Shown piece after piece: positions 4,737 through 22,285 of a DNA stretch of 52,388 nucleotides. The position numbers and the translations under genes were made by a program. Source of the DNA: Myxococcota bacterium (GTDB lineage: Bacteria > Myxococcota_A > UBA796 > CAJQPC01); NCBI GenBank assembly GCA_023150845.1, contig JAKLKD010000016.1:1-52388 (forward strand), written 5' to 3'. The notes under the pieces were generated by a model. It made no database searches. It was not told the DNA's origin and saw nothing but the letters and a program-made list of their open reading frames with translations. The number at the start of each line of letters is the position of its first letter. The first letter of the stretch is position 1.

Positions 4737-5654
4737 TTAGGCCAGCCCTAGTTTAATTTTCATACACTTCGTGGGAGGCTTGGCTCGATGCTGCTGCTTT
4801 GCCTTGCTGGTGGGAAACACTTCTTCGCAATAGGGACAACTCCATCTCTGTCCGTCCGCGACGGGAGACGTCTTTGATGCAACGTTGCCGGACTGCGGCG
4901 CCTTTGACCCACCCGCCTGCGCTGGCGCTTGGCGTTTCGCTACCCAAGTTCCATCACTGGCAGCCTTTGCGCTCCTACTGACCATAGGACGGCTACCGGA
5001 TTTCTGCGCGGATGTCTGCTGTGGGACCGCCGCTCTCGTACCTGTACGCCCTTTGCCGCTATTGGGAGCATTTCGGCTCGGTTGCACCCCAGCGATCATC
5101 TTGGGATTCTGCGCGGCGGGTCGCACCAGTGGGGACAGCGCACGCGCACCTACAGCAATGTGGAACCGGACCGCACGCTGACGGCTCCCGAGCTTAAAGG
5201 TAAGCTGTTCTCCATACTGATCTTCCTCAAAATCAACCTTTGACCAGTCTAATATCACACACTTCTTTACACTCTCAGGGCCCGGCTCTCTCAGCTGTAG
5301 GCACATCGGACAATTTTTGCGCTTCGGATCGCGCTCACCATCACCTTGCCAGCCTATCTCACGTCCTTCATGATGAATCCAGAAGATCTGCGATGACGTT
5401 CCTTTACGAGCCTTCGATATAAACGATCCATTCTCACAAATTGTCGCATCAGCAAAGTGGTCCGTCAAATGGGCAACAGCCTCCTCACTGACCAATTCAT
5501 CGTTACCACAGATCGGACAACGCCACTTCATCCCACCGCGCCGCTGCTGCGCCATCTGACGTTGTTTCTCAGTTAGAAAGTGATCCTCAGGCTGCTCAGC
5601 GCGTTCCCGTGCCCTTTGGTTTCGGGTCACCTTCTCCTGGTCCAGCTTTGCCAT
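4737..5654 (-). CDS. AT-rich zinc-finger protein at the 3' end of the retron operon
   Basis: 305 aa. The N-terminal half has a C2H2-type finger near residues 45-66 (CPIC ... HLTDH) and another CPMC pair near 115-118. The C-terminus has CPYC ... H ... C near 273-297, the shape of a finger that could bind nucleic acid or protein. Residues about 175-265 are a low-complexity linker rich in Ser, Ala, Gln and Pro. Base composition is clearly lower in GC than every neighbour, and the stop is TAA, both signs of separate acquisition. It starts 29 bases after the RT stop on the same strand and is the last gene of the run. I do not recognise the family. An effector, nucleic-acid-sensing or accessory role in the retron unit is inferred from position only. 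Confidence 0.75.
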   Translation of the reverse strand: MAKLDQEKVTRNQRARERAEQPEDHFLTEKQRQMAQQRRGGMKWRCPICGNDELVSEEAVAHLTDHFADATICENGSFISKARKGTSSQIFWIHHEGREIGWQGDGERDPKRKNCPMCLQLREPGPESVKKCVILDWSKVDFEEDQYGEQLTFKLGSRQRAVRFHIAVGARALSPLVRPAAQNPKMIAGVQPSRNAPNSGKGRTGTRAAVPQQTSAQKSGSRPMVSRSAKAASDGTWVAKRQAPAQAGGSKAPQSGNVASKTSPVADGQRWSCPYCEEVFPTSKAKQQHRAKPPTKCMKIKLGLA

Positions 5655-5683: not shown

Positions 5684-7066
5684 TTAGGAATTTACCGCCG
5701 CGCCGGTGATCTTCTGGAGCTCGGCGTAGAGGCGCTCGCCCTCCTGGGGCATGGTCATGCGGATGTAGGCGATGAGGCCGGCCACCCGCTCGACGGTCTC
5801 ACCCTCGGGCAAGGGCTTGCCGTGGGCGAGGTGGTGGAGGGCGGCGCGCACCCGGCGGCGCAGCTCACGGGGCGGGCGCGGGCCCTGGTCGCCGTTGATG
5901 ACTAGGCCGGTGACCGCCTGACGACCGCCGGAGCGGGCGACGCGGGTCTTGTCGGGGTGGACGATGAAGCCCTCGTCCTTCACGACCTCGTGCACCACGC
6001 CGAGCAGCTTGGAGAGCCGGGCGGCCGGGGCCTGGGAGGGCGTCGGCGCGGTCTCGGCGGCCTTCTTACCTTTGGCGGGCTTGGCCACGGGAGCAGCCTC
6101 AACAACCGGCGCCTCCGCCGGGCGAACCCGGGAGAAGGTGAGGTCGTCGGCGTAGCGGGTGTAACGCCAGCCAAGCTTCGCCGCCGCGCCCGCGAGGCGC
6201 CGGTCGAGGCGCATACACACGGCGTTGGTGATGGCCGGGCTCGTCGGCGCGCCCTGGGGCAGACAGCGCGGCCCCAAGGCCACAAACAGGCGCTTGCCGT
6301 CCTGCTCGACGATCTCCCGGGGGGACTCGGTGCACAAGAGCGCGAGTAAGGTCGCGACCTGCTCCCGGTAGCCCGCCCGGCGGAAGAGGCCCTTCACCCG
6401 GGGCAAGGTCAGCGTCGGGAAGAAGTCCTTGAGGTCGAGCTTGAGCACGACCAAGGCGCCGTTGTGGGCGGCGGCGTTCGTGGCGATGGAGCGCCCGGCC
6501 AAGAAGCCATGCGCCGCGCCGTGAACGGGCAGCTTCTCGACGATCTCCCGGAGGATCCAGCGCTGGGCCTTCTTGAGCTTCGGCATCGGCGCCCAGATCG
6601 CGCGCTCACCGCCCGTCCGCTTGGGGATCGTGAAGCGGCGGTAGTGGATGCCCGTGGCGAGGTCGCGGTGCCAGGCGAGCCAGCGCAGCTCGACGATGCT
6701 GAGGCCCAAGGACTCCGCGAGCTTCTTCGGGGTGTCGATGGGCGGCAGACCGTTCTCGGCCTGGCGCTCCTCGGGCTGGGGCACGTCGAAGCGGTCGAGG
6801 TCGTCGGCGTCGTTCCAGTAGACCCCTTCGCCCAGATGCACGACGTGGTTGGCCTTGTGGGCCTTCCACGCCGCCGCCCGCAGCGCCCGGGCCTCGGCGG
6901 CCTCTCGCTTGAGCTCCTGCTTGTACTTCTCCAGCTCCTTCGGGCTCATCCCGTCGGTGGGGCGGCGCTTCACGAGGAAGCCCTTCGCCTCAAGCTGCTG
7001 CCGGACGTAGTTGTCGACGCTGCCCGCGGAGCGAACCGCGAGCCACAGCGTAGTCAAGTCGCTCAT
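5684..7066 (-). CDS. Retron-type reverse transcriptase
   Basis: 460 aa. Synthesises msDNA from a structured RNA in retrons. Seen in order: an N-terminal extension of about 140 residues, as I recall for myxobacterial retron RTs; NAAAH at 197-201, the retron-specific NAXXH motif; the catalytic LKLDLKDFFP at 208-217; QGAPTSP at 271-277; the active-site YADD at 305-308; an Ala/Pro/Lys-rich insertion at about 313-350; and VTG at 385-387, the second retron hallmark used in template recognition. The start ATG overlaps the stop of the SWIM-WGR gene by four bases (ATGA), so the usual upstream msr-msd position is occupied by coding sequence. With SWIM and HEAT neighbours it resembles type XIII retrons (recalled, not searched). 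Confidence 0.93.
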   Translation of the reverse strand: MSDLTTLWLAVRSAGSVDNYVRQQLEAKGFLVKRRPTDGMSPKELEKYKQELKREAAEARALRAAAWKAHKANHVVHLGEGVYWNDADDLDRFDVPQPEERQAENGLPPIDTPKKLAESLGLSIVELRWLAWHRDLATGIHYRRFTIPKRTGGERAIWAPMPKLKKAQRWILREIVEKLPVHGAAHGFLAGRSIATNAAAHNGALVVLKLDLKDFFPTLTLPRVKGLFRRAGYREQVATLLALLCTESPREIVEQDGKRLFVALGPRCLPQGAPTSPAITNAVCMRLDRRLAGAAAKLGWRYTRYADDLTFSRVRPAEAPVVEAAPVAKPAKGKKAAETAPTPSQAPAARLSKLLGVVHEVVKDEGFIVHPDKTRVARSGGRQAVTGLVINGDQGPRPPRELRRRVRAALHHLAHGKPLPEGETVERVAGLIAYIRMTMPQEGERLYAELQKITGAAVNS

Positions 7067-8943
7067 GCTCCACCTGCCGTGGCGTCGAGGAAGCCCCGTG
7101 CCTCTAACGTGTCCACGCGCCCAAAGTAGGCCGCGCGGGCCTCCGCCTCAGTGTTGAAGACCAGGTTCTGGGCCCGGAGGCTCTCGCCCCGGCTGCCCCA
7201 GCGCACCCGCAGCTTACGGAGGTCAAGGGTGAGCTGAAAGACCTCCTCCGTCGCGCCCTTTCGTTTGACGTAGGTGCGAGTCTCGACGGTGATGGTGTCC
7301 CGGCTCTTGCCGCGGTTGGCGAGGCGCTCGGCCTCGACCCGGGCCTGCTGGAGCCGCAGAGCGATGAGGTGCGCGCAGGGGCCCTCCTTGAGCCCGTGCT
7401 GGCGGACCTGGGCGCAGGTGCAGGTCGCCTTACGCACCCGGCCGTCGTCCATGAGCAGGAGCTCGGGGCGGTACTCACGCTTGTCGGCCTCGACCACCAC
7501 CTTGCCGATGAGCTCTAAGCCCTCGCCGTGGATGTGGTTCTCCTTGATGACCTTCACCGCGCCCTTGACGTTGAGCAGGTCAAACGCCGCGCGCTCGCGG
7601 TCGTTGCGGTACTCCAGGCGGGTGAGGTCGGGCAGCTCGGCGAGCACCGGGCGCAGGCGGTAGACCCCGCCGGGGAGGTCGATCATCACCTGACCGAGCT
7701 GGGTGCCGAGCTGCAAGGCGGCGAGCACCCGGTCCATCGTTAGGCCCGTCGTCTTGGCCAGAGCCTCGGCGGAGGCGACCCGGGGGCCCGCGAGGGCCTT
7801 GAGCACCGCAGGGAGGTCGGAGTCGTCCCGGCCAGCGCGGGGCAAGAGCAGGTCGAAGCTCACCGACTGCGACCAGGCCGCCGAGGTGAAGCCCGAGAGG
7901 CCCAAGGTGAAGGTGATCGGCCCGGCGCGCAGCACCCAGAAGCTCGGCAGGCCCGAGCCCAAGAGGTGAAGCTCGACGGAGTCCGAGAATGGCAACAGCC
8001 GCCGCATCATCATCAGGCGGCGGCGGCCCCAGAGGCGCAGGACCTCGGCGCGACGGCCGGTGTAGGCGGCGCCGTGGCTGGGCAGCACGAGCTCCCAGGG
8101 CTCCAAGACGAGGCGCGGGGCCTCGCCAGGCACAAGCTCGACGCGCAGGCCGCGGCCCTTGTTCTTCTGGTCGGCGTTCAGGCGCAGGTGCCGCAGCACG
8201 TTGTAGAGGTCGAGCGGCGCGATGCTGACCTTGGTGGTCGGCAGGCTCGCCGCGGACTGCACCTGCAAGAAGCCGCGCAGCCAGGAGTCCGGCACGCTGA
8301 TGCGCTTCTCTAAGGTGCTGGCCTCCCCCGCCGTCAGGCGCACGGCCTCTTGGCCGACGCTGATGCGGGTGGGGCGGTAGCTCCGCATACGCTGCACGCT
8401 GTCGTGGAGCGCCTGGGAGAAGTCGATGTGGGTGGTGCCGCAGACGGGCTCGCCCTCGATCTCCAAGGCGTCGCGCTGAATCGCGAGCCGGGCGTAGCTG
8501 CCCTCGTCCTTGGAGAACACCTCAAAGGACAGCTCGTCGGGGAAGACCGAGACGAGCGGGTCGAGGAGGATGAACGCCAGGGGATCGTTGCGCAGGAGCC
8601 AGTCGAAGTAGGCCTTTCGCGCCGCGGCGCTGTTCGCCGCCGTGCCCGACTGCTGGCGCATCCGCTGGAACGCCAGCCAGGCCGTGCGGTCCTTGGGCTG
8701 GTACGAGAAGTCGCTGGAGACGACCTCGTACAAGGCCGCCAGGGCCTCGCGCAGCCGCACGGGGTCCTTCACCCGGGCGTTGAGCTGAACCGGCGCCCGC
8801 TTGAGGTCGCCGAACAGCGCCAGCACCGTGTCGCCGTCTTGGGTCTTGAGGCCGCTGTCCCCGCCGTAGGCGAGGTCAACGGCGGTGCGCTCCACCTTCG
8901 GCGGCTCGACGGCCGCCGGGGTCTCAGGGGTGTTGCCGCTCAT
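7063..8943 (-). CDS. Winged-helix / SWIM zinc-finger / WGR protein (retron-associated)
   Basis: 626 aa. Residues about 375-435 look like a winged helix (LPAVLKALAGPR ... GGVYRLRPVL). A SWIM zinc finger follows: C508-x-C510 ... C523-x-H525, the CxC-xn-CxH signature of a DNA- or protein-binding finger. Residues about 550-622 match a WGR domain (LRVRWGSRGES ... EARAAYFGRVDTLEARGF), the nucleic-acid-sensing module known from PARPs and some bacterial proteins. The N-terminal 370 residues are unassigned. ATGA overlaps couple it to both the giant HEAT gene before it and the RT after it. A winged-helix-SWIM protein is, as I recall, a standard component of type XIII retrons. Its exact role there is not established. 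Confidence 0.85.
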   Translation of the reverse strand: MSGNTPETPAAVEPPKVERTAVDLAYGGDSGLKTQDGDTVLALFGDLKRAPVQLNARVKDPVRLREALAALYEVVSSDFSYQPKDRTAWLAFQRMRQQSGTAANSAAARKAYFDWLLRNDPLAFILLDPLVSVFPDELSFEVFSKDEGSYARLAIQRDALEIEGEPVCGTTHIDFSQALHDSVQRMRSYRPTRISVGQEAVRLTAGEASTLEKRISVPDSWLRGFLQVQSAASLPTTKVSIAPLDLYNVLRHLRLNADQKNKGRGLRVELVPGEAPRLVLEPWELVLPSHGAAYTGRRAEVLRLWGRRRLMMMRRLLPFSDSVELHLLGSGLPSFWVLRAGPITFTLGLSGFTSAAWSQSVSFDLLLPRAGRDDSDLPAVLKALAGPRVASAEALAKTTGLTMDRVLAALQLGTQLGQVMIDLPGGVYRLRPVLAELPDLTRLEYRNDRERAAFDLLNVKGAVKVIKENHIHGEGLELIGKVVVEADKREYRPELLLMDDGRVRKATCTCAQVRQHGLKEGPCAHLIALRLQQARVEAERLANRGKSRDTITVETRTYVKRKGATEEVFQLTLDLRKLRVRWGSRGESLRAQNLVFNTEAEARAAYFGRVDTLEARGFLDATAGGA

Positions 8944-11900
8944 GCGTGGGTCTCCTGCGCCCGGGTGCGCTGGCGGCGCGCGCGCCGCAAGGCCCGCCAG
9001 GCCGCCTTCCGAAGCTCCTCATCCTCTGCCGCGCTCGTGGCGACGGCCCGCAAGGGCGCCTCCACCGCCGGATCCTCAAGCCGACCTAAGGCCTCGATGG
9101 CCCCGAGCCGCGCCGCCTCGGGCAAGGCGCGGTCGCCGAGCGCCGCCGCGAGGCCCGCCACGTCGCCGCGACCCACGAGGATCGGCAAGACCGAGCCCAG
9201 CCAGGCCGTCTTGCTGAGCCCCGCCCGCAGGGCGTCGGACGCCCCGCCCGCCCCGATGAGCCGGGCGAGCCGCACCGGATCCTCCAGGGCCCCCGCCGCC
9301 AAGGCCTCGGCCCGGCCAACGTTGAGGCCCCGCAGGCCGTGGGCCGCGAGGCTGCGCTCCTCGGCGTCGCCCTCGGCGGACACACGCTCCAGGGTGGTGA
9401 GGCCCGCCTCGCCGCCCAAGCCCGCGCCGATGGCCAAGAGCGCCGCCCGACGCAGGGCGCCGAGCGCGACGCCCGGCAGGCTCACCAAGGGCAGCACCCG
9501 CTCCGCGCCGACGCCGAGGCGTCCGCAGGCCCAGACCAGGGGCTCCAAGGCGAGGGCGATCTCGGGCAGCTCCTCCTCGGCCTCGGAGTCCGCGCCGCGG
9601 GCCAGCCGGGCGCGTAAGGCGTCGAGCTGGTCGCAGAGGCGACCGAGGGCGGTGAGCAGCGCCGGGCCGTGGGAGGCGTCGGCGCCACGACCCACGAGCC
9701 GCGCCGCCAAGGTGACCACGGCGCGCCGGTCCGAGGCCAAGGCCGCGGCGGCCTCGACAGCGGGGGCGGGCTTGCGGCCCAAGAGCGCCACGGCGACGGC
9801 CTCGATGACCGGCTGGTGGTTGTAGCGGTCGGGGTTGAGCTCGTTGAGCAAGGAGAAGAGCTGCGCCGCCGTCGCCCGGGTGACGATGCGCTCCAAGGCG
9901 CCCTCGTCGTCGTCCAGGCCCCGCTGGGAGCGCGCGGCGAGGAGGTCGGGCTCCAGAGAGTCGGGGCCGAGCCGAGCGCGGAGGCTGGTCACCGCCGCGC
10001 CGCTCACGTCGCCGTCACGATCCTCAACGAGCTTCCGCAGCACGTCGAGCCCCGCCTCGGTGCGCTCGTCGGCCAGCACCTCGGCGATGACCTCCCGCAC
10101 CCTCCAGTTGTCGTCCTTCGCCCGGGCCCGCAGGATGACCCAGGCGGGCTCGCTGCCGAAGTGGCGCAGGCCGGAGAGCGCGCTGAGCGCGACCTCACCC
10201 TCACCCTCGGCGAGCTTGGTGAGGGTCTTGAGCACCTGCTCGGCGCGGTCGCCCGTGGAGAGGTGGCCGAGCGCCTCGGCGGCGGCCTCCTGGAGCGCGT
10301 GGCCCTCCTCCGTCGCGAGGCGGGAGAGCAGCTCCAGAGACCGCGCGTCGGCCAGGGGCCCCAGCGCCTTGACCGCCCGCACCCGCCAGTCGAGCTCCGG
10401 CATGAGCTCCACCGCCGCGAGCAAGGCCGCCGCGCCGTCGTTCCGACCGGCGAGGGCGAGGCCCTCCGCGGCCAAGAAGCGCAGCTCGACCTCGGGGCTC
10501 TGCAAGGCCCGCAGGAGCGTGTCCGCCGGGCCCGCGCGCTTGCGCAGGCGCCAGCCGATGGCCTCGATGACCTCCTGGCGCACGTCCGGCTTGCTGTAGC
10601 CGACCAAGGCCGCCAACGCCGCGTCTACGACGCTGCTCGGCGCCCAGCGCAGGGCCGGGATGAGCTCGTTGGAGAGCATCCGGTCCTCGCCCAAGGCCGC
10701 GGCCTTACGGGTCAGCTCGACCAGGCCCTCGTCGCTGCGGGGGTGCTGATCCTTGAGCCAGGCGCGATCGTGAAGGCGCTCGTCCTCGGTGTCGTCAATG
10801 TCTTGGTCGTAGCCGGTGACGGTGAGCGCGCCGTAGAGCGCCGCGCGGCGGAGCTCCTTGACATCGGTGAGCTTGAGCAGGCGGCTGAGGCTGCCGGGCT
10901 GGCGCAGGTCGGCGGCGAAACGGATGAGCTCGTCGCCGAGGCCCGCGCCCTTGTCGGGGCGGTCCACACGGTCGAGCAGCGCGTCCACCACCCGGGGGTC
11001 ACCCAAGGCGATGAGGCCATCGCGAGCCTCGCGCATCTGGCGGGTGTCGTCGCCGTTGAGCACCTTCACCAAAAGATCCCAGGCCGCGCCGTCGCGGCGC
11101 TCGGCGAGGCGGCGGGCCGCCCCCAAGCGCACTTCAGCGTGGCGTGAGCCCAAGGCGGCGCGCAGGGCGTCTACGGCGGCCGGCTCCGTCGGCGCCATCT
11201 TCGCCAGCCAGGCGAGGCCCTGCTGGCGGAGGTTGGCGTCCCGGGCGTCGAGCACGAGGCGACCGGCGGCCACCTCGCCTTGGCGCTCGGCGATGAGGTT
11301 CGCCGCCGGGGTCTGCATGCCGTCGGTGCGCTCCAAGGCGACGCGGCGCAGGATGCTGACGGCGGCGTCCCCGCCGGCCTGCTCGGCGAGCACCCGCATG
11401 CCCAAGGCGCCGACGTCTTGGTGAGACGCGGCGAGGGCCTCGGCGCCGAGGCGCGCTGGCTCCATGCCGAGGCGCTGCAGGGCGTTGAGCGCGGTGATGC
11501 GCACCGGCGCCATCGGGTCGGACAGGGCGAGCACCATGACGGGCTCGACGGAGGCGCCCAAGGCGGGCTCCTCGACGGCCATGGCCAAGAGGCGGCTGAG
11601 CGCCTTCACCCGCACGCTGGCCTCCCCGGACCCACCCTCACGGGCGAGGCCGACGCAGGCGCCGAACACCACGGGGCGCAGCGTCGCCTCGGTGGGGCGG
11701 GGGTCGTGCTTGAGGCGGCGCTCCAGCTCGGCCCGGCCCGCGTCTAAGGCGGCGGCGGCCCGGGCGCGAAGGGCCTTCCACTCACCCTCAAAACGCTCTT
11801 GGGTCGGCAGCTCTAGGCCGGCGAGGGCGGCGGCGCCCCGGGCGCGGAGCTGGGGATCCGCAGAGGCCAAGGCGGCGGTGAGGTCCATCACCACGCCCTC

Positions 11901-14900
11901 GGCGACGGTCCACGGGGGCACGGAGCCCGCGCGGCCCGGCGTCGTGACGAGGCTCATCAGCTCGGACTGGGAGATCGGCGTCGCCCAGCTCCGGTCGTTG
12001 ACGCGCTCGACGGCGGCGGCGCGGAAGTCGGCGGCGTCGGGGCAGCGCTCCAGGAGCTCGGCGGCGGCGAGGCGGACCACGCCCGTCGAGGCGGAGAGCG
12101 CCGAGAGCAGGCGGCTCGGGGGATCCTGGGGCTCAGCCAGCTCCAAGAGCGCCACGGCGAGCAGGGCCCGGCGGCGCACGATGGCGTTGTCGGAGTCGAG
12201 CAGGCTCAACAGCGCGCCACGCCCGGTCTCCCCCAAGGCCAAGGCCGCCATGAGGCGCTCGGGCTCACCGAGGGTCGGCTCGGCGGGGGCGGCGGGCTGG
12301 TTGTTGCGCTTGTTGCGGTTGTTGGAGGTGTCCGGCGCCTTGGGGCGGGCGAAGAGCAGGCTCACCCCGGCGGCGTCGCCGTTGATCGCCAGGCCGAACG
12401 CGGCCTTCAACCGAACTTCAGCGTCGCTGTGGCGCAGCGCGGCGCGTAGGGCGTCGAGCTGGCCGGGCCGGGAGATCCAGGCCAGGGCCTCGACAGCGGC
12501 GAGGCGGATCTTCGGCTGCTCGCGGCTGAGCAAGGCGGCGACGGGCTCAAGCGCCCCGGGCTCACCCAGGCCACCCAGGCCGCCCAGGGCCGTGATGACC
12601 CGAGCCTCCCACGCGGCGGGATCCCCCTTGCCGGGCTCCGGCTTCGCCTCGGTGGCGACCTCCAGGAGCGGGCCCAAGGCCGCCGGGTCGCCATGCGCCG
12701 CACGGGCCGAGGCCGCGCGCACCCGCACGTCGGGCCAGCGCGCGGTGAGCGCCGCCGACAAGGCGTCGTGGGCCTCCGCGGTGACCAAGGCGCCGATGGC
12801 GAGGCTACGCACCTCGGCGTCGTCGTCCTCAAGCGCCTTCACGAGGAGGGCCTGGCCGCCGTCGCTGCGCTTCTCGGCGAGCTCCTTGGCCGCCCGGCGC
12901 CGCAGATCGGCGTGCTGGCAGCCCAAGGCCGCGGCGAGGGGCTCCAGGCGACGGCTCTTGGCGCGCTTCTGGGCGAAGGCGAAGGCGTCGCTGCGCAGAG
13001 TGGCGTCGGGGTCGTCGAAGAGCTCCAGCAGCAGGCCCCAGGCCCAGGGCTCATCAGGCCGGGCCATGATCTCGGTGAGCACCTCGCGGCGCACGTCCAC
13101 ATGCAGCGAGCGCAGGGCGAAGCGCTGGGTGTTCGCGCCGCCGCCGGAGACGCCCAGGTTGAGCGCGGCCTTGAGGGCCTCGCCGCGCACCCCGGCGTCG
13201 ATGTCGTTGAGCGCGAGCTGCAAGAGCGCGATGGCGGCGGGATCCTCGACCTTGGTGGCCCGGAGCTTCGCCGTGAGCACCTGCAGCGCGCGCTTCCGCA
13301 CGTCGTCGTGCTCGGCGTGGAGCCCGGCGTCAGCGGCCTCCAGAGGTGTGGCCTCCAGGATGCGGGTGAGCGCCGAGAACGCCGCGTCACGCACCTCGGG
13401 GGCGGCGTCGCGGATCATGAGGCGCAGGCGGTTGAGCGCGCGGGCGTCGCCGAGGGCCTCAAGCGCCTTACAGGCCTGCACCCGGGCGGACTTGTCGCCG
13501 TCGCGGCTGAGCTGCAAGAGCGCGCCGAGGGCCCGGGAGTCGCCCAGCGACGCGAGGCCGACGGCGCCGCGCAGGCAGGTGTCCAGCGCCCGGGAGGCCA
13601 TCGCCTCCAAGAGCGGGCGGAGGTCATCGCCGCCGAGCGCGCTCGCCTCGACCTTCTTCGTCTTGGGCGGCTTACGGTCGGGGTCGTCGGGCAGGCCCCA
13701 GGTGTCGAGCTCAAAGAGCTGGCGGTGCAGGTCGCGGTCGCGGTGGCGCAGGGCCTCGGCGAGGAGCGGCCGGGACGAGACGTTCACCAAGAACGCCATC
13801 ACCCGCACGTCGGCGTCTTTGTCTTCGCCGTGGCGACGGAGCGCGATGCCCGTCTCGGCGAGGTGCAGGAGCCCGCGCTGCTTGAGGCGTAAGAGCGCCA
13901 GGCGGCGCACGTCGGCCCGGTTGGAGTCGAGCGCGAGCAGGTCCGCCGCGGGGTCGCCGTCGGGGTGGATCGCCTCCAAGGCGAAGAGCGCCGCGGTGCG
14001 CACCTCCTGGGGCTCATCGCGCAGGGCTTGGACGAGCCGGGCCATGGCCAGCTCATCCGTCGGGGCCATGCCCTGGAGCACCTTGACCGCCGCCTGGCCA
14101 AGATCGGCCTTCTTCGCCGAGAGCGCGGCGTTGAGCGGGTCGAGGCTCTCCGGCCCGGCGATGCGGCGCAGGCCGTTGAAGGCGTTCAGCCGCACGACGG
14201 CGTCGTTGGAGCTGAGCAGGCCGGTGAGCAGCTTGCGGGCGCTGGGGTGGTCGCTCTGGCCGAGGAGCTCGGCGGCGAGGCCACGCAGGCTCACCTGCTC
14301 GTCGCTCTTGGCGCGCTCGCTGAGGCGGCTGACGCTCTCGGCGTCCCCCCAGCGGGCCAAGGCGCGCATGGCGTCCTCACGCTGCTGGGGCTCGGAGCGG
14401 CCGAGCTCGGCGTCCGCCCAGGCCAAGGCGCCGCGGGCGGTGATCGCCGCCTCGCCGACCTTGCCCGAGGCGTCCATGAGCAAGATGCGGATCGAGCCGT
14501 CGAGGAGCGCCAAGGCCAAGGCCGGGCGCGACTTGTAGCGCACGACGATGAGGCCGACGCTCTTGGCGATCCAGTCCTTCGTGGTGGTCGGGCGCTTGCG
14601 GCCCGCGCCCAAAGGCCAGGCCTTGAGCACGCCGTCGTCACCGGCGGTGTAGAAGCGGCGGTCGCTGTGCTCCTCGGCGCCGACGGCGATGCCGCGCACC
14701 GGGCCGTCATGCGCCGCGCCGCCGCCGCGGTCTTCAGGCTCCAGCCGCCCGCGCAGGTGCGTCGAGAGCAGCTTGTTGTCGACCCCCGCCGAGAGCACCC
14801 GCAGCTCGCCGGGCTCAAAACACAGGGTCGTGACCGCGCCCTCGTGGGCCTTCACGGCCTCGCCGCCCAAGAAGCGGGGCTTGTCCTCGTCGTCGAATGC

Positions 14901-15374
14901 GCAGAGCTTGCCGCCCGCGGTGCCAACGGCGATCCAGTGGCCCGTGGGGTCGGCGACGATGGCCGTGCCCGCCTCGGGGAGCTCCAGGTCTTGCAGGACG
15001 GCGCCGTCCGCCGCGCTCACGATGCTCAACAGCGCCCCGCGCAGCACGCCGAGGCGGCCGTTCGAGAGCACCGCCAAGGCCGTGCCCGCCGGGCTCAGCG
15101 CCGGGCCGATGGGCGCGAGCGCCGACTCCCCCGCCCGGAGGCGGTAGATGTGGCCGTCTTCAGCGGTGACGAGGAGGTCCTCGCCGTCCGGGTCGAGATC
15201 GAGGCCGCCGCAAGGCAGCGGGTACGCCTTCTGCTCGCCCTTGTCGAGGTCCAGGCGGTAGAGCGCCGTGGCGTGGCCCTCGGCGTGCCGGGTGGTGAAC
15301 CAGAGCGCGTCCCCTTGGGCGCGGAGCCCGGTGACCGCGCCGCGGTGCTGGAACATACGATCGACGTGGGCCAT
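8940..15374 (-). CDS. Giant WD40 + HEAT-repeat protein (retron-associated scaffold)
   Basis: 2144 aa. Residues about 1-330 form a WD40-like beta-propeller, with blades such as KAHEGAVTTLCFEPG and HDGPVRGIAVGAEE ... RFYTAGDDGVLKAWPL. From about 340 to the end there are several dozen HEAT/armadillo repeats of about 31 residues with the recurring pattern D-x-x-V-R-x-x-A-x-x-x-L. A Lys/Asn-rich linker lies near residue 1020. No catalytic motif was seen, so it is probably a very large platform for partner or nucleic-acid binding. The start overlaps the preceding stop by one base (TGATG) and the stop overlaps the SWIM gene start (ATGA). It fits the armadillo-repeat component of type XIII retrons. 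A long open frame on the opposite strand is a GC-driven shadow. Confidence 0.88.
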   Translation of the reverse strand: MAHVDRMFQHRGAVTGLRAQGDALWFTTRHAEGHATALYRLDLDKGEQKAYPLPCGGLDLDPDGEDLLVTAEDGHIYRLRAGESALAPIGPALSPAGTALAVLSNGRLGVLRGALLSIVSAADGAVLQDLELPEAGTAIVADPTGHWIAVGTAGGKLCAFDDEDKPRFLGGEAVKAHEGAVTTLCFEPGELRVLSAGVDNKLLSTHLRGRLEPEDRGGGAAHDGPVRGIAVGAEEHSDRRFYTAGDDGVLKAWPLGAGRKRPTTTKDWIAKSVGLIVVRYKSRPALALALLDGSIRILLMDASGKVGEAAITARGALAWADAELGRSEPQQREDAMRALARWGDAESVSRLSERAKSDEQVSLRGLAAELLGQSDHPSARKLLTGLLSSNDAVVRLNAFNGLRRIAGPESLDPLNAALSAKKADLGQAAVKVLQGMAPTDELAMARLVQALRDEPQEVRTAALFALEAIHPDGDPAADLLALDSNRADVRRLALLRLKQRGLLHLAETGIALRRHGEDKDADVRVMAFLVNVSSRPLLAEALRHRDRDLHRQLFELDTWGLPDDPDRKPPKTKKVEASALGGDDLRPLLEAMASRALDTCLRGAVGLASLGDSRALGALLQLSRDGDKSARVQACKALEALGDARALNRLRLMIRDAAPEVRDAAFSALTRILEATPLEAADAGLHAEHDDVRKRALQVLTAKLRATKVEDPAAIALLQLALNDIDAGVRGEALKAALNLGVSGGGANTQRFALRSLHVDVRREVLTEIMARPDEPWAWGLLLELFDDPDATLRSDAFAFAQKRAKSRRLEPLAAALGCQHADLRRRAAKELAEKRSDGGQALLVKALEDDDAEVRSLAIGALVTAEAHDALSAALTARWPDVRVRAASARAAHGDPAALGPLLEVATEAKPEPGKGDPAAWEARVITALGGLGGLGEPGALEPVAALLSREQPKIRLAAVEALAWISRPGQLDALRAALRHSDAEVRLKAAFGLAINGDAAGVSLLFARPKAPDTSNNRNKRNNQPAAPAEPTLGEPERLMAALALGETGRGALLSLLDSDNAIVRRRALLAVALLELAEPQDPPSRLLSALSASTGVVRLAAAELLERCPDAADFRAAAVERVNDRSWATPISQSELMSLVTTPGRAGSVPPWTVAEGVVMDLTAALASADPQLRARGAAALAGLELPTQERFEGEWKALRARAAAALDAGRAELERRLKHDPRPTEATLRPVVFGACVGLAREGGSGEASVRVKALSRLLAMAVEEPALGASVEPVMVLALSDPMAPVRITALNALQRLGMEPARLGAEALAASHQDVGALGMRVLAEQAGGDAAVSILRRVALERTDGMQTPAANLIAERQGEVAAGRLVLDARDANLRQQGLAWLAKMAPTEPAAVDALRAALGSRHAEVRLGAARRLAERRDGAAWDLLVKVLNGDDTRQMREARDGLIALGDPRVVDALLDRVDRPDKGAGLGDELIRFAADLRQPGSLSRLLKLTDVKELRRAALYGALTVTGYDQDIDDTEDERLHDRAWLKDQHPRSDEGLVELTRKAAALGEDRMLSNELIPALRWAPSSVVDAALAALVGYSKPDVRQEVIEAIGWRLRKRAGPADTLLRALQSPEVELRFLAAEGLALAGRNDGAAALLAAVELMPELDWRVRAVKALGPLADARSLELLSRLATEEGHALQEAAAEALGHLSTGDRAEQVLKTLTKLAEGEGEVALSALSGLRHFGSEPAWVILRARAKDDNWRVREVIAEVLADERTEAGLDVLRKLVEDRDGDVSGAAVTSLRARLGPDSLEPDLLAARSQRGLDDDEGALERIVTRATAAQLFSLLNELNPDRYNHQPVIEAVAVALLGRKPAPAVEAAAALASDRRAVVTLAARLVGRGADASHGPALLTALGRLCDQLDALRARLARGADSEAEEELPEIALALEPLVWACGRLGVGAERVLPLVSLPGVALGALRRAALLAIGAGLGGEAGLTTLERVSAEGDAEERSLAAHGLRGLNVGRAEALAAGALEDPVRLARLIGAGGASDALRAGLSKTAWLGSVLPILVGRGDVAGLAAALGDRALPEAARLGAIEALGRLEDPAVEAPLRAVATSAAEDEELRKAAWRALRRARRQRTRAQETHA

Positions 15375-18300
15375 CAGCGGCTCCCCTCTTGGGCGTCTAA
15401 GCCGGGGTGGGCGTGGCGAATTCGGGTGAGCGCGACGAAGCAGGCCGCGCGCTCAGACGCGCCCCGGCTCTCGGAGAAGTCGCGGAGCACCGGGGTGACC
15501 ACGGCGGCCAAGGACGCGTCCTCGACGGCGAGGTCGCGGAGCACCTCAACCAAGGCGAGCTTGGCCTTCCGCGCGGGCAAAGGCCGCAGCTTGGGGCCCC
15601 GATCAACCTCTTTGGGTGGACGGGCCGGGGGCACACCGTAGAGCGTCTGGCGTAAGAACGCCGCGAGCTGCTCGGCGCTGGCGGGGTGCGCGGCGGGCCG
15701 AGGCGGCGGGCCAGCCGGGGCCACGGGCGCGGCGCTGGCGGCTTTGCCTAAGGTCGAGGCCGGGGGCGGCGCGGGCTTCCAGCCCTCCGTGATGCCCCGG
15801 TCGCGGTAGAGCCCACGCACCGTACGCACGACGAAGGCCCGCACGTTGCGGTCGGGGGACTCGCTGAGGCGGAACAGCTCCTCGGGCAAGGCGAGGTGTT
15901 TGTGGCGGCCGATGAGGTCCATGCCCAAGGCGCGGGTCTCGGCGTCGAGGGACTCGCAGAAGCGGTAGACGGCCTCGGGGGTGAGCCGGGCGGGGTCGAT
16001 GCGGATGCGTTTGTTGTCGGGGTGCTCGTCCGCGGTGAGGGCCTTCCGAACAAAGGCGCGGACCTCGGCGTAAGAGACCTCGGAGAGCTGCACGAGGTCG
16101 GGCATCGGCGGCTGCCAGCGCGCCATCTCGAAGCGGGCGAGGTCCAGGGCCAGCTCACGGAGCTGGGCGCGGGGGTCCAAGAAGAGGGGCTTCACCCGCT
16201 CGAAGGTCAGCCAGTCGGCGGGGATCTCCGCGCCCGGGTCTACGGGGCGGTCGGTGAGCTCCAGGCCGAGATCGACGTGGTGGCGGCGCACATACCGCAG
16301 GGCGAAGCGGCCGAGGGGCGTGTCGCCCGGCGCCAGGACCATGTCCCACAGGGCCTCGCAGCCCGCGCTCGTCGTGTCGGTGTCGAAGGTGCGCTGCTCA
16401 CCCGCCAACATCTGCAAGAACGCCGTCTCGGAGATGATGCGGATCGGCGCGCCCTTGGCCATGAGCTGCTCGGCCTTCACCTGCTTGGAGCCCTTACGCC
16501 CCATGCCGTAGAGCGGCGAGCCCTCGTCGCCGATGACGAGGTAGTCGAGCTTGGGGCTCACGCCCGCGGCGTTGGAGCCGCCCGCCGAGGTGACCTTCCC
16601 CTCAGCGACGTCCCGGGTCATCGTGTTGAGCTTGCCGGTGAACAAGAAGCTCGCGCCCCCGAGGTCCACCTTCGCCGGGGCGGCGGCGCTGGGCGCGGCC
16701 TCGACGGGGGCGGCGTCTTTGGGAGCGAAGTCCGCGGGCAAGAAGGCCTTGACCATGTATTCGACGGCGAACTCGTGGTGGTGGGCCTCACCGCGCTGGA
16801 TGAGCTCCATCAGCCAGCCGAAGCCCAAGGCCGAGGGTGAGAAGCGCCGCACGTCCTTGAGCCAGCCCAGGGCCCGCTGAGAGAGCTCGCTGTTGAAGGA
16901 GAGGTCCCGCGCCCACTTGCGGCCGCTCGCGAGCAGCTCATTCCAGAAGGCCGAGGTGAGCCAGGTGGGCTCAAAAGCCACGGCCTTGATGAAGTCGGCG
17001 CCGAGATCGACGGCCTTCACGCGCTCCTGGTCCACCCAGGCCGCGGCCTGGGACCAGGTGCGGGGGTGGACGAGCAGGCGGCGGATGGCCTCGATGCCCA
17101 GCTCATCGGGGGAGAAGCGGCCCAGCGTGTCCATCGCCCAGCGGGCGACGTCGTAGTCGAGGCGGTCGTCGTCGAGGAGATCCCGGAAGAACGCCGCGCC
17201 GAGCTTGTTGAGCGGGTGGACCTTCACGAGCAGGTCCGAGGCGAACTCAAAGACCGTGTCGTCGCCGGAGAGCAGGCGCTCGCGGAACCAGTCCGTCGTG
17301 AGCTCCCGGGCGCCGAAGTGTTTGCGGATCGCCGCGGCGGCGAGGTCGTGGCCATACTCGCTGCCGAGCAGGCGCCCCCAGCCCTCCAGGCCTACGTCCG
17401 CGCGGGGGTCGCGGTCGGAGAGCAGGTCCCGGGCGAGGAGGCGCACGGCCTCGACCTCGTTGTTGGCGAGCTTGATGAGCCGGTCCAAGGAGAGGTCACG
17501 GGCATGCGTGCGCGCGTAGCCCGCCGCCCAGGTCGCCGCGTCGCTCGACGGCGACTCGAGGAGGCTCAGCACGGGCTCGTGCAGGCCCAGCTCACGGAAG
17601 CTCGCCTGCTCAAAGCGGGGCACGTTCTTGAGCAGCCACACGACGAAGTCGTGGACCTCATCGGAGATGACCACGGTGAGCCGGGCCACCCAGGCGGGCT
17701 CGACCTCACGCAGCTCGGCGCGGAAGTCGGCGCGCAGGGCGTCGGCGGCGAAGCGGCGGGCCTGCTCGGCCTGGGCCGTCTCCAGGAGCGAGAACAGCGG
17801 GCGGGGCGACCGGCGCCAGAGCTCCGGCGCGTAGCGGTACTTGAGCAGCGTGCTCGGGCGCGGGCTCAGCCGGAAGCCGCGTCGGCCGTACTGTTTGGTC
17901 TCGTGGTAGAAGATGTGAGAGGCCACCCACAGCTTCGCCCAGTTGGCGCTGTCGCTATAGGCCCGGAGCACCTGCACCGCCGCGTCGGCGTAGGCCGCGG
18001 GCAAGGTGAGGCTCAGGCCACGCAGGGTGCGCCAGGCGCGGCGCACGAGGTAGCTCAGGGTGACCTTGCGCACCTCTTGCTCGCGGAAGGACGTGGCGCA
18101 GGTGGTGTCGAGGCGGGCGACGATGGCGCCCCAGACCTCGTAGTCGCCCTTGGCCTCGGACTCCTTAAACACACGCTTGATGGCGCGCCAGGGGCCCCAG
18201 CGGAGCGCGACGTCGCGGATGACGGCGAGGAGGGCCGACCGGGCCCAGGGCTCGTCCGTGCGCCAGAGGGTGAGGATGACCTCGTCGAGGCGCAGGCGGT

Positions 18301-18619
18301 CCGGGGGCGGCACCTCGGCGTCGGGGCCGAGCACCGCGGCGAGGCGGGTCTCGCGCAGGCGGCGGCGCTCCTCGGCCTTCATCTGGTGGCGCACCTTGTG
18401 GGTGCGCAGCTCGGCGATGACGCCGTCGTAGGTGATCGCCCCGGGGCGCACCGGCGCCGTGACGCGGGGCTCATCGGACTCAGCGAGGGCACAGATGAGC
18501 TTCGGCAGCTCAGGGTCGCGGCAGGCCAGGGCCTCGCGCACGTCAGACAGTCGGATCGCGGCTTCCAACACACCCTCCTGGGGAGGCCAGCCCAGCACGT
18601 CTGAGGTGGTGGCCACCAC
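15374..18619 (-). CDS. Large HEAT-like protein with internal BRCT domain (retron-associated)
   Basis: 1081 aa. Residues about 1-625 and 750-940 are helical, HEAT-like. Residues about 650-740 form a BRCT domain of the DNA-ligase/RFC kind: SFLFTGKL ... KVTSAGGSN ... VSPKLDYLVIGD ... KAEQLMAKGAPIRIISETAFLQML. BRCT modules bind phosphopeptides or DNA ends. Ala/Pro-rich linkers flank it (630-648 and 950-982). The start is uncertain: GTG at 18619 has no clear ribosome site, while an in-frame TTG at 18568 has AGGAGG five bases upstream and would remove 17 residues. The stop overlaps the giant HEAT gene start by one base. No enzymatic motif seen; it is probably a DNA-damage or DNA-end sensing scaffold (inference). 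Confidence 0.82.
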   Translation of the reverse strand: MVATTSDVLGWPPQEGVLEAAIRLSDVREALACRDPELPKLICALAESDEPRVTAPVRPGAITYDGVIAELRTHKVRHQMKAEERRRLRETRLAAVLGPDAEVPPPDRLRLDEVILTLWRTDEPWARSALLAVIRDVALRWGPWRAIKRVFKESEAKGDYEVWGAIVARLDTTCATSFREQEVRKVTLSYLVRRAWRTLRGLSLTLPAAYADAAVQVLRAYSDSANWAKLWVASHIFYHETKQYGRRGFRLSPRPSTLLKYRYAPELWRRSPRPLFSLLETAQAEQARRFAADALRADFRAELREVEPAWVARLTVVISDEVHDFVVWLLKNVPRFEQASFRELGLHEPVLSLLESPSSDAATWAAGYARTHARDLSLDRLIKLANNEVEAVRLLARDLLSDRDPRADVGLEGWGRLLGSEYGHDLAAAAIRKHFGARELTTDWFRERLLSGDDTVFEFASDLLVKVHPLNKLGAAFFRDLLDDDRLDYDVARWAMDTLGRFSPDELGIEAIRRLLVHPRTWSQAAAWVDQERVKAVDLGADFIKAVAFEPTWLTSAFWNELLASGRKWARDLSFNSELSQRALGWLKDVRRFSPSALGFGWLMELIQRGEAHHHEFAVEYMVKAFLPADFAPKDAAPVEAAPSAAAPAKVDLGGASFLFTGKLNTMTRDVAEGKVTSAGGSNAAGVSPKLDYLVIGDEGSPLYGMGRKGSKQVKAEQLMAKGAPIRIISETAFLQMLAGEQRTFDTDTTSAGCEALWDMVLAPGDTPLGRFALRYVRRHHVDLGLELTDRPVDPGAEIPADWLTFERVKPLFLDPRAQLRELALDLARFEMARWQPPMPDLVQLSEVSYAEVRAFVRKALTADEHPDNKRIRIDPARLTPEAVYRFCESLDAETRALGMDLIGRHKHLALPEELFRLSESPDRNVRAFVVRTVRGLYRDRGITEGWKPAPPPASTLGKAASAAPVAPAGPPPRPAAHPASAEQLAAFLRQTLYGVPPARPPKEVDRGPKLRPLPARKAKLALVEVLRDLAVEDASLAAVVTPVLRDFSESRGASERAACFVALTRIRHAHPGLDAQEGSR

Positions 18620-18705: not shown

Positions 18706-18915
18706 TCAGCGCGCGCCCGGACGCCCCGCGCGACGCTGCTCTTCGGGGGGGTAGGGGCAGTGGCGGCAGCCGTTGCCGCAGCAGTGGCCGCGCGCGGCCA
18801 AGGCGCCCGCGGTGAGCACGGTGTAGCCCGACTGCGGATCGATGTAGGTGGGGCGACCCAGCTTCTGGGCCAGCTCATGCGCGCGGAGCGCGGCGGGGCT
18901 TGGGGGTGCGCCCAC
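18706..18915 (-). CDS. Small DUF5522-type cysteine-rich protein
   Basis: 69 aa from a GTG start with a strong GGAGG ribosome site five bases upstream, lying inside the 3' end of the nuclease gene (41-base overlap). The C-terminus carries the family signature CCGNGCRHCPYPPEE, four closely spaced cysteines plus histidine that could bind a metal. Upstream of it is LGRPTYIDPQSGYTVLTAGALAARGHC, also typical of this small family. Such proteins occur widely in bacteria as stand-alone genes, often of unknown role. The overlap with the Bax1-like gene means translation is probably coupled. Any functional link with the helicase-nuclease pair is inference. Confidence 0.8.
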   Translation of the reverse strand: MGAPPSPAALRAHELAQKLGRPTYIDPQSGYTVLTAGALAARGHCCGNGCRHCPYPPEEQRRAGRPGAR

Positions 18916-20155
18916 GGGGGCCTCCTTCTTCGGATTGGGGCGTTGGAGCGGCGACGATCGGCGGCGCGAGGCGCTCGATGGCGGCGAGCACGTCCTTCGC
19001 GGGCACGACCTCTTTAAAGGGGATGATCTGGCCCTTGAAGCCCTCAATGCCGCCCTTCGCGGCGTCGAGGCGGCTTGAGACGGCGAGCACGAGCCGCGCG
19101 GACCCAGCGCCCTTGAGCGCGGTGAGCCGCCGCTTGAGCCAGTCCTTGCGCCAGAAGCCGACGATCTCCAGGTGTGCCACCCGCTCCCCTTGGGTGAAGG
19201 TGAAGCAGGGAAAGAGCAGCTCTTGACCCGTCAACTTCAAGGGCTGGCCGCCGCGGGAGAGCGTCCAGGGGCTCTCCAGGGCCAAGAAGCGCTCCTGAAA
19301 CCACTCCTCGACCCGGGTGACGTAGGCGCCTTGGTCGCGGGTGTAGGGGCGCAGGCCGGTCTCGGAGCTGAGGTTCAGGGTGTGCCGCACCTTCCGCACG
19401 CCCCAGCGGATCTCGGCCTCCAGGCGCCAGGGGCAGGTCTGGAGCAGCAAGGTCGGCAGCCACGAGGCCAAGGCGAGCCCGTAGCGTGTGCTGTGTTGCA
19501 GCAAAGAGGTGGGCCCATCGAGCTGAAAGCGCCAGCCGCCCTCAGCCGGGGTCACCCGCGCCATGAGGCCGTGGAACTTCACCGCGCGGTAGAGCTGCTG
19601 CAGGCGCTCGGGGCTCGGCCCCTCCAAGGTCACGGTCAGCTCTTGGCAGCGTAAGAGCACGGACTGCACCAAGGACACGTTGTAGCGTTGCAGGAGCCAG
19701 GCGCCGTCGGGCACGTCGAAGGCGCGGAGGGTCTGCTCATCCTTACGGTCGCCGAAGAGCGCCCGGCGAAGCTCCTCTTCCGGCCGGTCGTACATCACCG
19801 CGAGCTCGGCCCAGACCTCGTTCGCGCGCTGAATCGACGGCGTAGGCCCCACCCGCTCAAAGAGGCGGCGACGAAGCTCATCTGAAGGCACCGTCGGCTC
19901 CGCCGTCCACTCGGCGCGGTCCTCCAAGACCTTCGCCAGCCCGCGCACGACCTTCACGTCGATGCCGTCGCCGATGAGATCCTCGACCTCCACCCGCAGC
20001 TCGCCAAGGCTGAGGCCCCTCGTGAGGCCGCCGCGGAAGATCTCGACGAGCTCGTCCGCGCGCTCGATGTTCGCGGGCTTGGTCACGTCCAAGAAGGACG
20101 GATGAAGCTCACGCTCCTTGTTGACCCGCACCCGGATCAGCTCAGCGGTAAGCAT
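18875..20155 (-). CDS. Bax1-like DUF790 nuclease, partner of XPB helicase
   Basis: 426 aa, full length for DUF790. Bax1 is known in archaea as the structure-specific endonuclease that binds XPB and cuts DNA bubbles. Family features seen: an N-terminal PFAM-like block LHPSFLDVTKPANIERADELVEIF and, near the C-terminus, VAHLEIVGFWRKDWLKRRL, whose acidic residue lies in the PD-(D/E)XK-type core. The C-terminal tail (about 395-426) is basic and Pro-rich. Its ATG lies 14 bases inside the end of the XPB-like gene, so the two are translated together. Pairing with XPB is the strongest support. The catalytic set was not checked residue by residue. Confidence 0.87.
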   Translation of the reverse strand: MLTAELIRVRVNKERELHPSFLDVTKPANIERADELVEIFRGGLTRGLSLGELRVEVEDLIGDGIDVKVVRGLAKVLEDRAEWTAEPTVPSDELRRRLFERVGPTPSIQRANEVWAELAVMYDRPEEELRRALFGDRKDEQTLRAFDVPDGAWLLQRYNVSLVQSVLLRCQELTVTLEGPSPERLQQLYRAVKFHGLMARVTPAEGGWRFQLDGPTSLLQHSTRYGLALASWLPTLLLQTCPWRLEAEIRWGVRKVRHTLNLSSETGLRPYTRDQGAYVTRVEEWFQERFLALESPWTLSRGGQPLKLTGQELLFPCFTFTQGERVAHLEIVGFWRKDWLKRRLTALKGAGSARLVLAVSSRLDAAKGGIEGFKGQIIPFKEVVPAKDVLAAIERLAPPIVAAPTPQSEEGGPRGRTPKPRRAPRA

Positions 20156-21506
20156 CGTGCTCGTTCCGTCGCTCGCTGGTGAGCTGCTCGGTGGTGTCTA
20201 AGGTGACGACCTCGTAGAGCACGGCCCGTTTGCCCGGTTTTGGCCGCAAGATTCGACCAAGGCGCTGAACGTGCTCTCGCACCGTGGCCGTGCCCGAGAG
20301 CACCACGCCCACCTGGGCCGCGGGGATGTCCACCCCCTCGTTGAGCACCCGGGAGGTCACCACGGCCATGTAGCGCCCGGCCTCGAAGCGCTGGAGGATC
20401 TCCCGGCGCTCGTCCGCCGCCGTCTCATGGGTGATGCAGGGGATGCCGAAGGCGCGGCTGATGCGGTAGACCGTGGCGTTGTCGTTGGTGAAGATGATGG
20501 TGCGCTCACCCTCGTGCTGGCGGAGCACCTCGTCGAGCTCATCGAGCTTCGCTTGGGCGCCGTGCATCACCCGCCGGGCCTCGCGGTGGGCCCGCAGCGC
20601 CGCCCGGCCCGCCTTCGAGCGGGAGGCGACCTGCAAGAAGCGCTGCCAGCCCTGGGGGCCGCGCATGTTGATGCGCTGGGCGGCGACGAAGCTCCGGTAG
20701 GTCTTGCGGGCCTCGTCGTAAGCGGCCTGCTCCTCTGCGGAGAGGCAGACCTCAAGGCGCATCACCTCATACTCGGCGAGCACCTGGCCGGAGAGCTCCT
20801 TGATGCCCTTCTGGTAGACCACGGGGCCGACGAGCTCATCGAGGCGCTGGTGCAGGCCGTCCGGGCGCTCCGGCGTGGCGCTGAGCCCCAGCCGCCACGG
20901 CGCGAGGCAGAGCTCGGCGACCTGGGCGTAGCTCTCTGAAGGCAGGTGGTGGACCTCATCAAAGACGATGAGCCCGAAGCGGTCGCCGTAGCGGTCCATG
21001 TGCAGGTAGGCGCTGTCATAGGTCGAGACGGTGAGCGGCCGGATGTCGTGCTGGCCGCCGCCCAACATGCCCACCTCCAGGCCGAAGGCCCGGCTGAGCA
21101 CACCGTGCCACTGGTTCACGAGGTCAATCGTCGGGGCGACGACGAGGCAAGAGCGCCGGGCGTCGGCGAGGCAGAGCTCGGCGACGAAGGACTTGCCCGC
21201 GCCCGTGGGCAGCACCACCACCCCGCGCCGCCCGGCCTTGCGCCAGGCCTCGACGGCCTCGGCCTGGTAGTCCCGGGGCGGGTGCTTCGTGGCGTGCACC
21301 AGCTCGTCCAGGCGGGTGTAGGCCCGGGCGGCGTCCTGCAGCGGCTCCCCTCGGGCGTGAAAGTCGAGGATCAGCTCGTGGTAACGCCGGGCCTCACCCC
21401 GGGGCATGTCGACGCGGTCATCCCAGACGAAGCCCGGCGGCAAGGCCCGGGCGCGCTCAAAGCCCCGGAGGAGGAGCGTGCCGCGATCGTACTGGAGGGT
21501 GATCAT
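20142..21506 (-). CDS. XPB-like superfamily 2 DNA helicase
   Basis: 454 aa, the short bacterial/archaeal XPB type. Motifs seen: Walker A PTGAGKS at 100-106, APTIDLVNQW (Ia), DEVHH at 183-187, GLSATPER at 207-214 and, near the end, NEGVDIPAAQ and QRLGRILRP, the motif VI form typical of XPB. A thumb-like helical insertion lies at about 255-320. It unwinds DNA for a partner nuclease; in known systems this is Bax1, encoded next here with a 14-base overlap. An ATGA overlap with the HNH gene upstream ties it to the Septu-like pair. It could serve nucleotide excision repair, but its place inside a defence operon argues for recruitment to immunity (inference). Confidence 0.9.
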   Translation of the reverse strand: MITLQYDRGTLLLRGFERARALPPGFVWDDRVDMPRGEARRYHELILDFHARGEPLQDAARAYTRLDELVHATKHPPRDYQAEAVEAWRKAGRRGVVVLPTGAGKSFVAELCLADARRSCLVVAPTIDLVNQWHGVLSRAFGLEVGMLGGGQHDIRPLTVSTYDSAYLHMDRYGDRFGLIVFDEVHHLPSESYAQVAELCLAPWRLGLSATPERPDGLHQRLDELVGPVVYQKGIKELSGQVLAEYEVMRLEVCLSAEEQAAYDEARKTYRSFVAAQRINMRGPQGWQRFLQVASRSKAGRAALRAHREARRVMHGAQAKLDELDEVLRQHEGERTIIFTNDNATVYRISRAFGIPCITHETAADERREILQRFEAGRYMAVVTSRVLNEGVDIPAAQVGVVLSGTATVREHVQRLGRILRPKPGKRAVLYEVVTLDTTEQLTSERRNEHDAYR

Positions 21507-22285
21507 GCCGGGAGCGCATAACGTGGTGGGGGCGGGTCGGGGAGCTTGGTGAGCAGGGAGGCGGCGGTGGTCGGGTAAGTCGCGCAGAAGGTGTTGAACG
21601 GAGAGAGCTCTCGACCCTCACGATCAAGCGCCCACACCACGAGCTCCGGGCGATCTGCCTCGTGTACCGCGGAGGTGAGGCGGCGCTCCTGCTCGGCGTC
21701 TGGACGCGCCAAGAACTCGGCCACGGCCTCAGACAGCGCCCGCCACGCCCGCCGGCGGCCGAGGGTGACCGCCTCGATGTTCAGCGGCAAGAGCTTGGGC
21801 GAGCAGGTCGCGTCACCGACCGGATCAGGCGCGCCCGTCTCGGGGTCCAACCGCGCCACGAGCTGGCCAGTGTCCGGCTCAAAGACAAGGTGATCCCAAG
21901 GATCTTGGCGGGTGGGGTCCAGGAGCAGCGGCGTGCCGTCCGCCGCCACCGGGAGCTGCGCGCCCTTCTTGCGGTTGCAGGGCGTGCAGACCCACAGGAG
22001 GTTCTCCCAGACGAACACCACCTCGGGATACCGGGCTTTGGGGCGGTAATGTTCAACATCGGCGGCGCGGGAGTCGGCGCACCAGACGCAGCGCTCGCGG
22101 GGACCCACCATCTGCTGTAGCGCCGAGATGACCCCGCCCATCTCTTTGGCGCGGCGGTGTTTGTCCCACCGTTGGTTGACGTCGGGCGAAATTCCAGACG
22201 CGCGCTCGGCGTCTAGCTCGGCTTGACGGGCCTTGAGCCAGCCCTCCGGCGCCTCATGGAGCGCAGGGCGATACAAACGCCGCAT
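21503..22285 (-). CDS. ptuB: HNH endonuclease, Septu PtuB type
   Basis: 260 aa. The HNH core lies at about 66-110: CVWC, then VEHYRPK, then WENLLWVCTPCNRKKG. The two Cys pairs (66/69 and 100/103) would hold structural zinc, and His79, Asn95 and Asn104 form the His-Asn-His-type centre. This matches the HNH family called 'retron system putative HNH endonuclease' and PtuB of Septu. The start shares one base with the stop of the ATPase gene (TGATG), the normal PtuA-PtuB arrangement. The C-terminus overlaps the XPB gene start by four bases. Predicted to cleave nucleic acid when the ATPase partner releases or activates it. Confidence 0.87.
   Translation of the reverse strand: MRRLYRPALHEAPEGWLKARQAELDAERASGISPDVNQRWDKHRRAKEMGGVISALQQMVGPRERCVWCADSRAADVEHYRPKARYPEVVFVWENLLWVCTPCNRKKGAQLPVAADGTPLLLDPTRQDPWDHLVFEPDTGQLVARLDPETGAPDPVGDATCSPKLLPLNIEAVTLGRRRAWRALSEAVAEFLARPDAEQERRLTSAVHEADRPELVVWALDREGRELSPFNTFCATYPTTAASLLTKLPDPPPPRYALPA

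Follow-up and report, generated by a model that had tools for sequence, protein, structure and literature searches.

We describe here an operon of four overlapping genes, at positions 5,684 to 18,619 on the minus strand of a 52,388-nucleotide contig from a Myxococcota bacterium (JAKLKD010000016.1, assembly GCA_023150845.1), which was analyzed over its whole length and is called the window below. According to the list of open reading frames (ORF) of the window, the operon encodes a reverse transcriptase (RT), a SWIM protein and two HEAT proteins. Retrons are reverse-transcriptase systems that usually act in anti-phage defence, and our results make it very probable that this operon supplies the proteins of a split type XIII-like retron, the template RNA of which (msr-msd) is encoded in trans, elsewhere in the genome. 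No such RNA lies beside the RT gene; a conserved RNA with covarying structure is present on another contig, and across genomes RNAs of this kind co-occur with four-gene operons like that of the window.

A preliminary description of the window, made from its letters alone, had recognized retron hallmarks in the RT (NAAAH and VTG, together with YADD) and had taken the SWIM and large HEAT proteins for components of a type XIII core. These readings held up. The RT is intact, with all three motifs in place, and the neighbouring proteins match the corresponding PADLOC models (Table 1). Against these models the RT scored 521 bits with RT_XIII and 319 bits with the next best, and it was the only RT_XIII match in its genome. 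Its best match in PDB was the RT of retron Ec86 (Eco1) at 1e-38, with which it shares the NAXXH, YADD and VTG motifs; the best group II intron RT reached 2e-5. Ec86 differs in its accessory genes, and its RNA sits beside its RT gene.

Relatives were collected with a SWIM_XIII scan over 379 genomes of the phylum, 67 of which were positive, and flanking sequences were taken for about 75 loci. In an RT tree of 65 rows, drawn from type XIII-like loci and without RTs of other retron types, four-gene loci formed a clade of 31 rows (support 100/99) that grouped with the canonical three-gene type XIII loci; type XIII also includes the Mx162/Sa163-like myxobacterial retrons. Within this clade, the subclade of the window comprised 19 rows (100/98) and its sister subclade 12 rows (99/91). 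The operon thus has the RT placement, the SWIM protein and the HEAT/ARM protein of a type XIII retron. As to the marks of retrons in general, it has the RT motifs, and a structured msr-msd with a1/a2 halves exists in trans, not beside the RT. The window system and canonical type XIII retrons share the RT_XIII, SWIM_XIII and HEAT-ARM_XIII proteins, but they differ in layout: canonical loci have the order WGR-HEAT, SWIM, RNA, RT, with a single RNA in the gap between the SWIM and RT genes, whereas the window has two HEAT genes, a WGR-like domain at the end of the SWIM protein, a BRCT insertion, no gap, and an unlinked RNA.

In canonical loci and in most loci of the sister subclade, the gap between the SWIM and RT genes spans about 70-790 nt (mostly 190-400) and contains a strongly folded RNA. 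In the window these two genes overlap by 4 nt, hence leaving no gap for an RNA, and none of the 19 loci of the window subclade has a gap RNA; this absence, the main anomaly of the locus, had escaped the preliminary description. We built a covariance model (R1) from 18 RNAs of relatives, in which 40 of 59 pairs had two-sided changes. Since R1 also recovered most canonical gap RNAs (24-62 bits), we consider all these RNAs to be one family. No real msr-msd copy was identified by R1 in the 52-kb window (best score 12 bits), and no Rfam family matched the window or the trans RNA described below. A scan of synonymous change between the window and locus L105, from a sister species, gave no clear signal of an RNA embedded in coding sequence. 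Two kinds of candidate were discarded: the half-site AAGGTAAGCTGTTC at position 5197, which lies within a zinc-finger ORF without its partner half and was judged a chance occurrence, and repeats upstream of L050 and L056, which the RNA model did not match in those loci. Some loci have RNAs outside the gap, either upstream of the operon (three copies in L059, one each in L053 and L062) or downstream (one in L063, two in L082); L081 has one copy in the gap plus two downstream. Downstream of the RT, the msr-msd copies form tandem pairs in L081 (14457-14970) and L082 (16806-17334).

In the genome of the window (G000), R1 found one strong copy only, the presumed cognate RNA (Table 1), on a 35-kb contig (C10; the window is the whole of C372). 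Its neighbours are an ABC-type transporter gene on one side and an XRE-type regulator gene on the other, as named from their translations. The RNA has an a1/a2 stem that pairs TGGCAATGGACTGTGAGG with CCTCACTGTCCATGCCA, it folds far better than shuffled sequences (z=-10.4), and 31 nt past the model match there is a hairpin followed by a T run, resembling an intrinsic terminator. The RNA is found at the syntenic place in another species of the genus, where the flanks are 82.6% identical and the RNA parts 98-100%.

It could be argued that the RT uses an unrecognized msr-msd hidden in the operon, and that the dispersed RNAs are functionless leftovers or retrotransposed copies. Synonymous change is slightly low in the first 90 RT codons, and msr-msd repeats without a near RT are known in Nannocystis exedens, where a retrotransposition event is possible (Lampson and Rice 1997, as cited in PMC6868368). 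However, the stretch between the operon and a small DUF5522-like ORF upstream measures just 87 nt, and in L105, from the sister species, the RT is followed within a few bases by a convergent gene. Moreover, the trans copies keep a covarying structure, those tested keep the a1/a2 pairing, which is expected to be missing from copies derived from msDNA (multicopy single-stranded DNA), and the G000 copy has hardly changed between two species whose flanks have diverged by 17%. We consider a hidden RNA improbable.

The unlinked layout extends to most relatives in the window subclade, and some genomes have 2-4 RNA copies. The RNA is on a different contig from the RT operon in nine genomes (G365, G218, G214, G058, G184, G122, G078, G189 and G063), about 15 kb from the RT in G374, and 100 kb away on one contig in G170. 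It is also unlinked in one lineage of the sister subclade (G160, G236 and G327), with 2-4 copies. All 25 unlinked sites tested lie between called genes. Six genomes (G365, G214, G058, G078, G309 and G319) additionally hold a canonical type XIII retron whose RNA does occupy the gap, and the RNAs of canonical type (model R2) are single-copy wherever clearly found; for these reasons an artefact of detection or assembly is unlikely. One could still suppose that C10 was binned from another organism in the metagenome, as G000 is a draft of 444 contigs with an estimated contamination of 4.16%. This is largely refuted, and we give it hardly any credence: the split is seen at the syntenic place in the sister species and in more than 10 genomes of other families, including one of about 40 contigs (G365), and in G170 a single contig holds both parts.

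Across 284 genomes, a set whose membership was inferred from handle numbers, the RNA was found in 18 of the 23 genomes with four-gene loci versus 1 of the 261 others (Fisher 5e-23). The single genome among those others, G257, matches R2, the canonical model, at 145 bits. RT and RNA distances were correlated over all loci (r=0.77, p=2e-4).

Several observations weigh against a template encoded in trans. When close pairs are left out, the correlation of RT and RNA distances within the window subclade is not significant (r=0.10, p=0.25), and the pairing of RT and RNA is based on homology and co-occurrence. Four loci of the window RT subclade (L060, L097, L098 and L100) have no RNA recognizable by R1 anywhere in their genomes; it may have diverged, been lost or not been assembled. 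A terminator was detected, by a crude scan, after only 8 copies, and the branch-point motif TAGC of the other copies reads CTGC-like in G000. Finally, most genomes are draft assemblies, so that true RT-RNA distances are uncertain.

The most variable part of the trans RNAs is a 28-bp stem of the msd. Paralogous copies differ mainly in this stem, with Watson-Crick pairing kept: within one genome, copies are 85-100% identical at the msd base and mostly 33-63% identical in the stem. In an alignment of 52 rows, which was fitted to the model and includes four antisense matches, 97.8% of the pair cells were paired, compared to 65% in shuffles. G-U pairs occupy only 2 of 1254 cells of the 28-bp stem (leaving out the outermost pair). 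In all msd helices they amount to 9 of 2379, whereas the msr hairpin has 19 in 329 cells (Fisher 6e-12, treating related sequences as independent). A helix selected as RNA tolerates G-U pairs, and one selected as DNA does not. Their near absence from the msd helices thus indirectly supports that the msd works as DNA, although mutation could also make G-U pairs scarce, through template switching that corrects imperfect palindromes. Between the two species of the window's genus, orthologous copies have the same stem sequence. That of G000 occurs a single time in its own genome, and viral contigs contain no exact match to it. Nothing therefore points to a spacer-like capture of other DNA, a reading that was rejected for this stem. 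The stems of unrelated copies often have common G-rich cores, such as GGGGGTACC or GGGGTGCC, as judged by eye.

Taken as a split retron, the system would work as follows. The msr-msd template would be a small gene in its own right, located elsewhere on the chromosome and ended by a terminator of its own. The RT would recognize the trans RNA by its structure, prime on it, and make an msDNA ending in a long, perfect DNA hairpin; for the window RT, the RNA on C10 is the likely template. The two HEAT proteins, as scaffolds, and the SWIM protein would hold the complex of RT and msDNA, with the winged-helix, WGR-like and BRCT domains contacting DNA or msDNA. If phages attacked the msDNA or DNA ends, an effector activity would be freed, and by analogy with other retrons the system would guard against phages. 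We recognized no catalytic effector domain in the proteins of the operon. Several relatives combine a single RT operon with 2-4 template genes that differ in their hairpin stems, and one RT may thus make several msDNAs. A more speculative possibility, which we put forward only tentatively, is that an operon serving dispersed templates with hypervariable stems has a repertoire of DNA baits or decoys that widens its sensing.

The genes of the operon overlap by 4 nt (RT and SWIM), 4 nt (SWIM and the 2144-aa HEAT protein) and 1 nt (the 2144-aa and 1081-aa HEAT proteins). The features are collected in Table 1. In locus L085 (4369-13386), the two HEAT genes form a single open frame of 3006 aa, by fusion or as an effect of gene calling.

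Table 1. Features of the split retron in the window and, in the last row, on contig C10 of the same genome (aa, amino acids)
Feature	Position	Strand	Evidence
Retron reverse transcriptase, type XIII-like, 460 aa	5684..7066	-	PADLOC RT_XIII 6.9e-157; NAAAH at residue 197, YADD at 305, VTG at 385
Winged-helix SWIM protein with WGR-like C-terminal domain, 626 aa	7063..8943	-	PADLOC SWIM_XIII 1.8e-178; weak Pfam SWIM and DprA_WH matches
WGR-like domain, C-terminus of SWIM protein, residues about 552-622	7078..7290	-	AlphaFold, Foldseek; weak Pfam WGR in homologue L086
2144-aa protein, WD40-like N-terminal part followed by HEAT repeats	8940..15374	-	PADLOC HEAT-ARM_XIII PDLC02919 E=0; HEAT_2 1.1e-63; weak WD40 at residues 120-202
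1081-aa HEAT protein, first gene of the operon	15374..18619	-	PADLOC HEAT-ARM_XIII PDLC02921 E=0, residues 21-1075
BRCT domain inserted in 1081-aa HEAT protein, residues about 652-738	16406..16666	-	PRK06195 and LigA models; PDB profile matches
Presumed cognate msr-msd RNA	G000:C10:29570-29785 (= L147:9771-9986)	+	R1 152 bits, E=2.6e-36

The 1081-aa protein had been described as an extra BRCT-HEAT component that may sense DNA ends. The gene itself is not an extra: it is already modelled by PADLOC as a type XIII part, and, besides the window, every four-gene locus with a contig long enough to include that end (24 loci) has a homologue. What is special is the BRCT domain, present in 8 of 14 proteins of the window subclade and in none of 11 in the sister subclade; these counts mark it as an optional insertion that only part of the window subclade has. 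With Pfam the domain scored 15.0 bits, under the cut-off of 21.3, but it is backed by the PRK06195 (7e-13) and LigA models, and a profile of the domain from 8 relatives matched the BRCT domains of DNA ligase and RFC1 in PDB (6.5e-7 and 4e-5). An AlphaFold model of the domain was poor (pLDDT 50) and was kept out of the fold search.

The C-terminus of the SWIM protein, modelled from an alignment of 23 sequences, gave an AlphaFold structure (pLDDT 86.5) of four strands and one helix. Its best Foldseek match was 2ra8, with weak matches to the WGR domain of PARP2, and Pfam WGR matched weakly (0.057) in the homologue L086. Canonical three-gene loci carry the WGR domain on the HEAT protein, at its N-terminus (Pfam 0.01 to 3e-6). 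The likeness of the BRCT profile to those of DNA ligase and RFC1 and the WGR-like domain in the adjoining protein make DNA-end sensing by the BRCT-HEAT protein plausible. That its gene is an additional sensor joined to a standard type XIII retron is doubtful, given that the gene is a standard part of four-gene loci and that many of its homologues have no BRCT domain.

Other genes surround the operon. Between the RT gene and the next one there is an insert of ~940 bp with a gene (4737-5654) that encodes two zinc-finger-like motifs. The GC content of this insert is 0.56, compared to 0.71 for the window; the insert is missing in the sister species (L105), and has no clear homologue in the other type XIII loci fetched. 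Just upstream of the operon, on the same strand (18875-22285), are genes for a DUF790/Bax1-like nuclease, a helicase and an HNH-like protein. The Bax1 models that match the nuclease gene are archaeal in origin, and the helicase gene is of the type expected as the nuclease's partner.

A precedent for msr-msd repeats apart from any RT is Retron-Nex1 (Ne160) of Nannocystis exedens, with several repeats that have no RT within a kilobase (PMC6868368, citing Lampson and Rice 1997). In the summary given there, these orphan repeats are attributed to duplication and insertion, carried out by a distant RT or some other element, and no cognate RT operon, conservation or stem variation is described (PMC6868368). 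The literature searched, which most subscription papers lie outside, described no retron clade whose RNA is encoded in trans and in several copies, and we regard the novelty of such a clade as provisional.

Searches for retrons usually look for the RNA beside the RT. A clade with a distant RNA would consequently be recorded as lacking one and be passed over in functional work. RNA encoded in trans could explain the orphan msr-msd repeats known from a myxobacterium since the 1990s, and turns this old puzzle into a testable one. A natural RT that accepts trans templates with freely variable stems would be useful for making DNA in cells. Lastly, the variation of the stems raises the question of whether the hairpin sequence itself is what phages act on.
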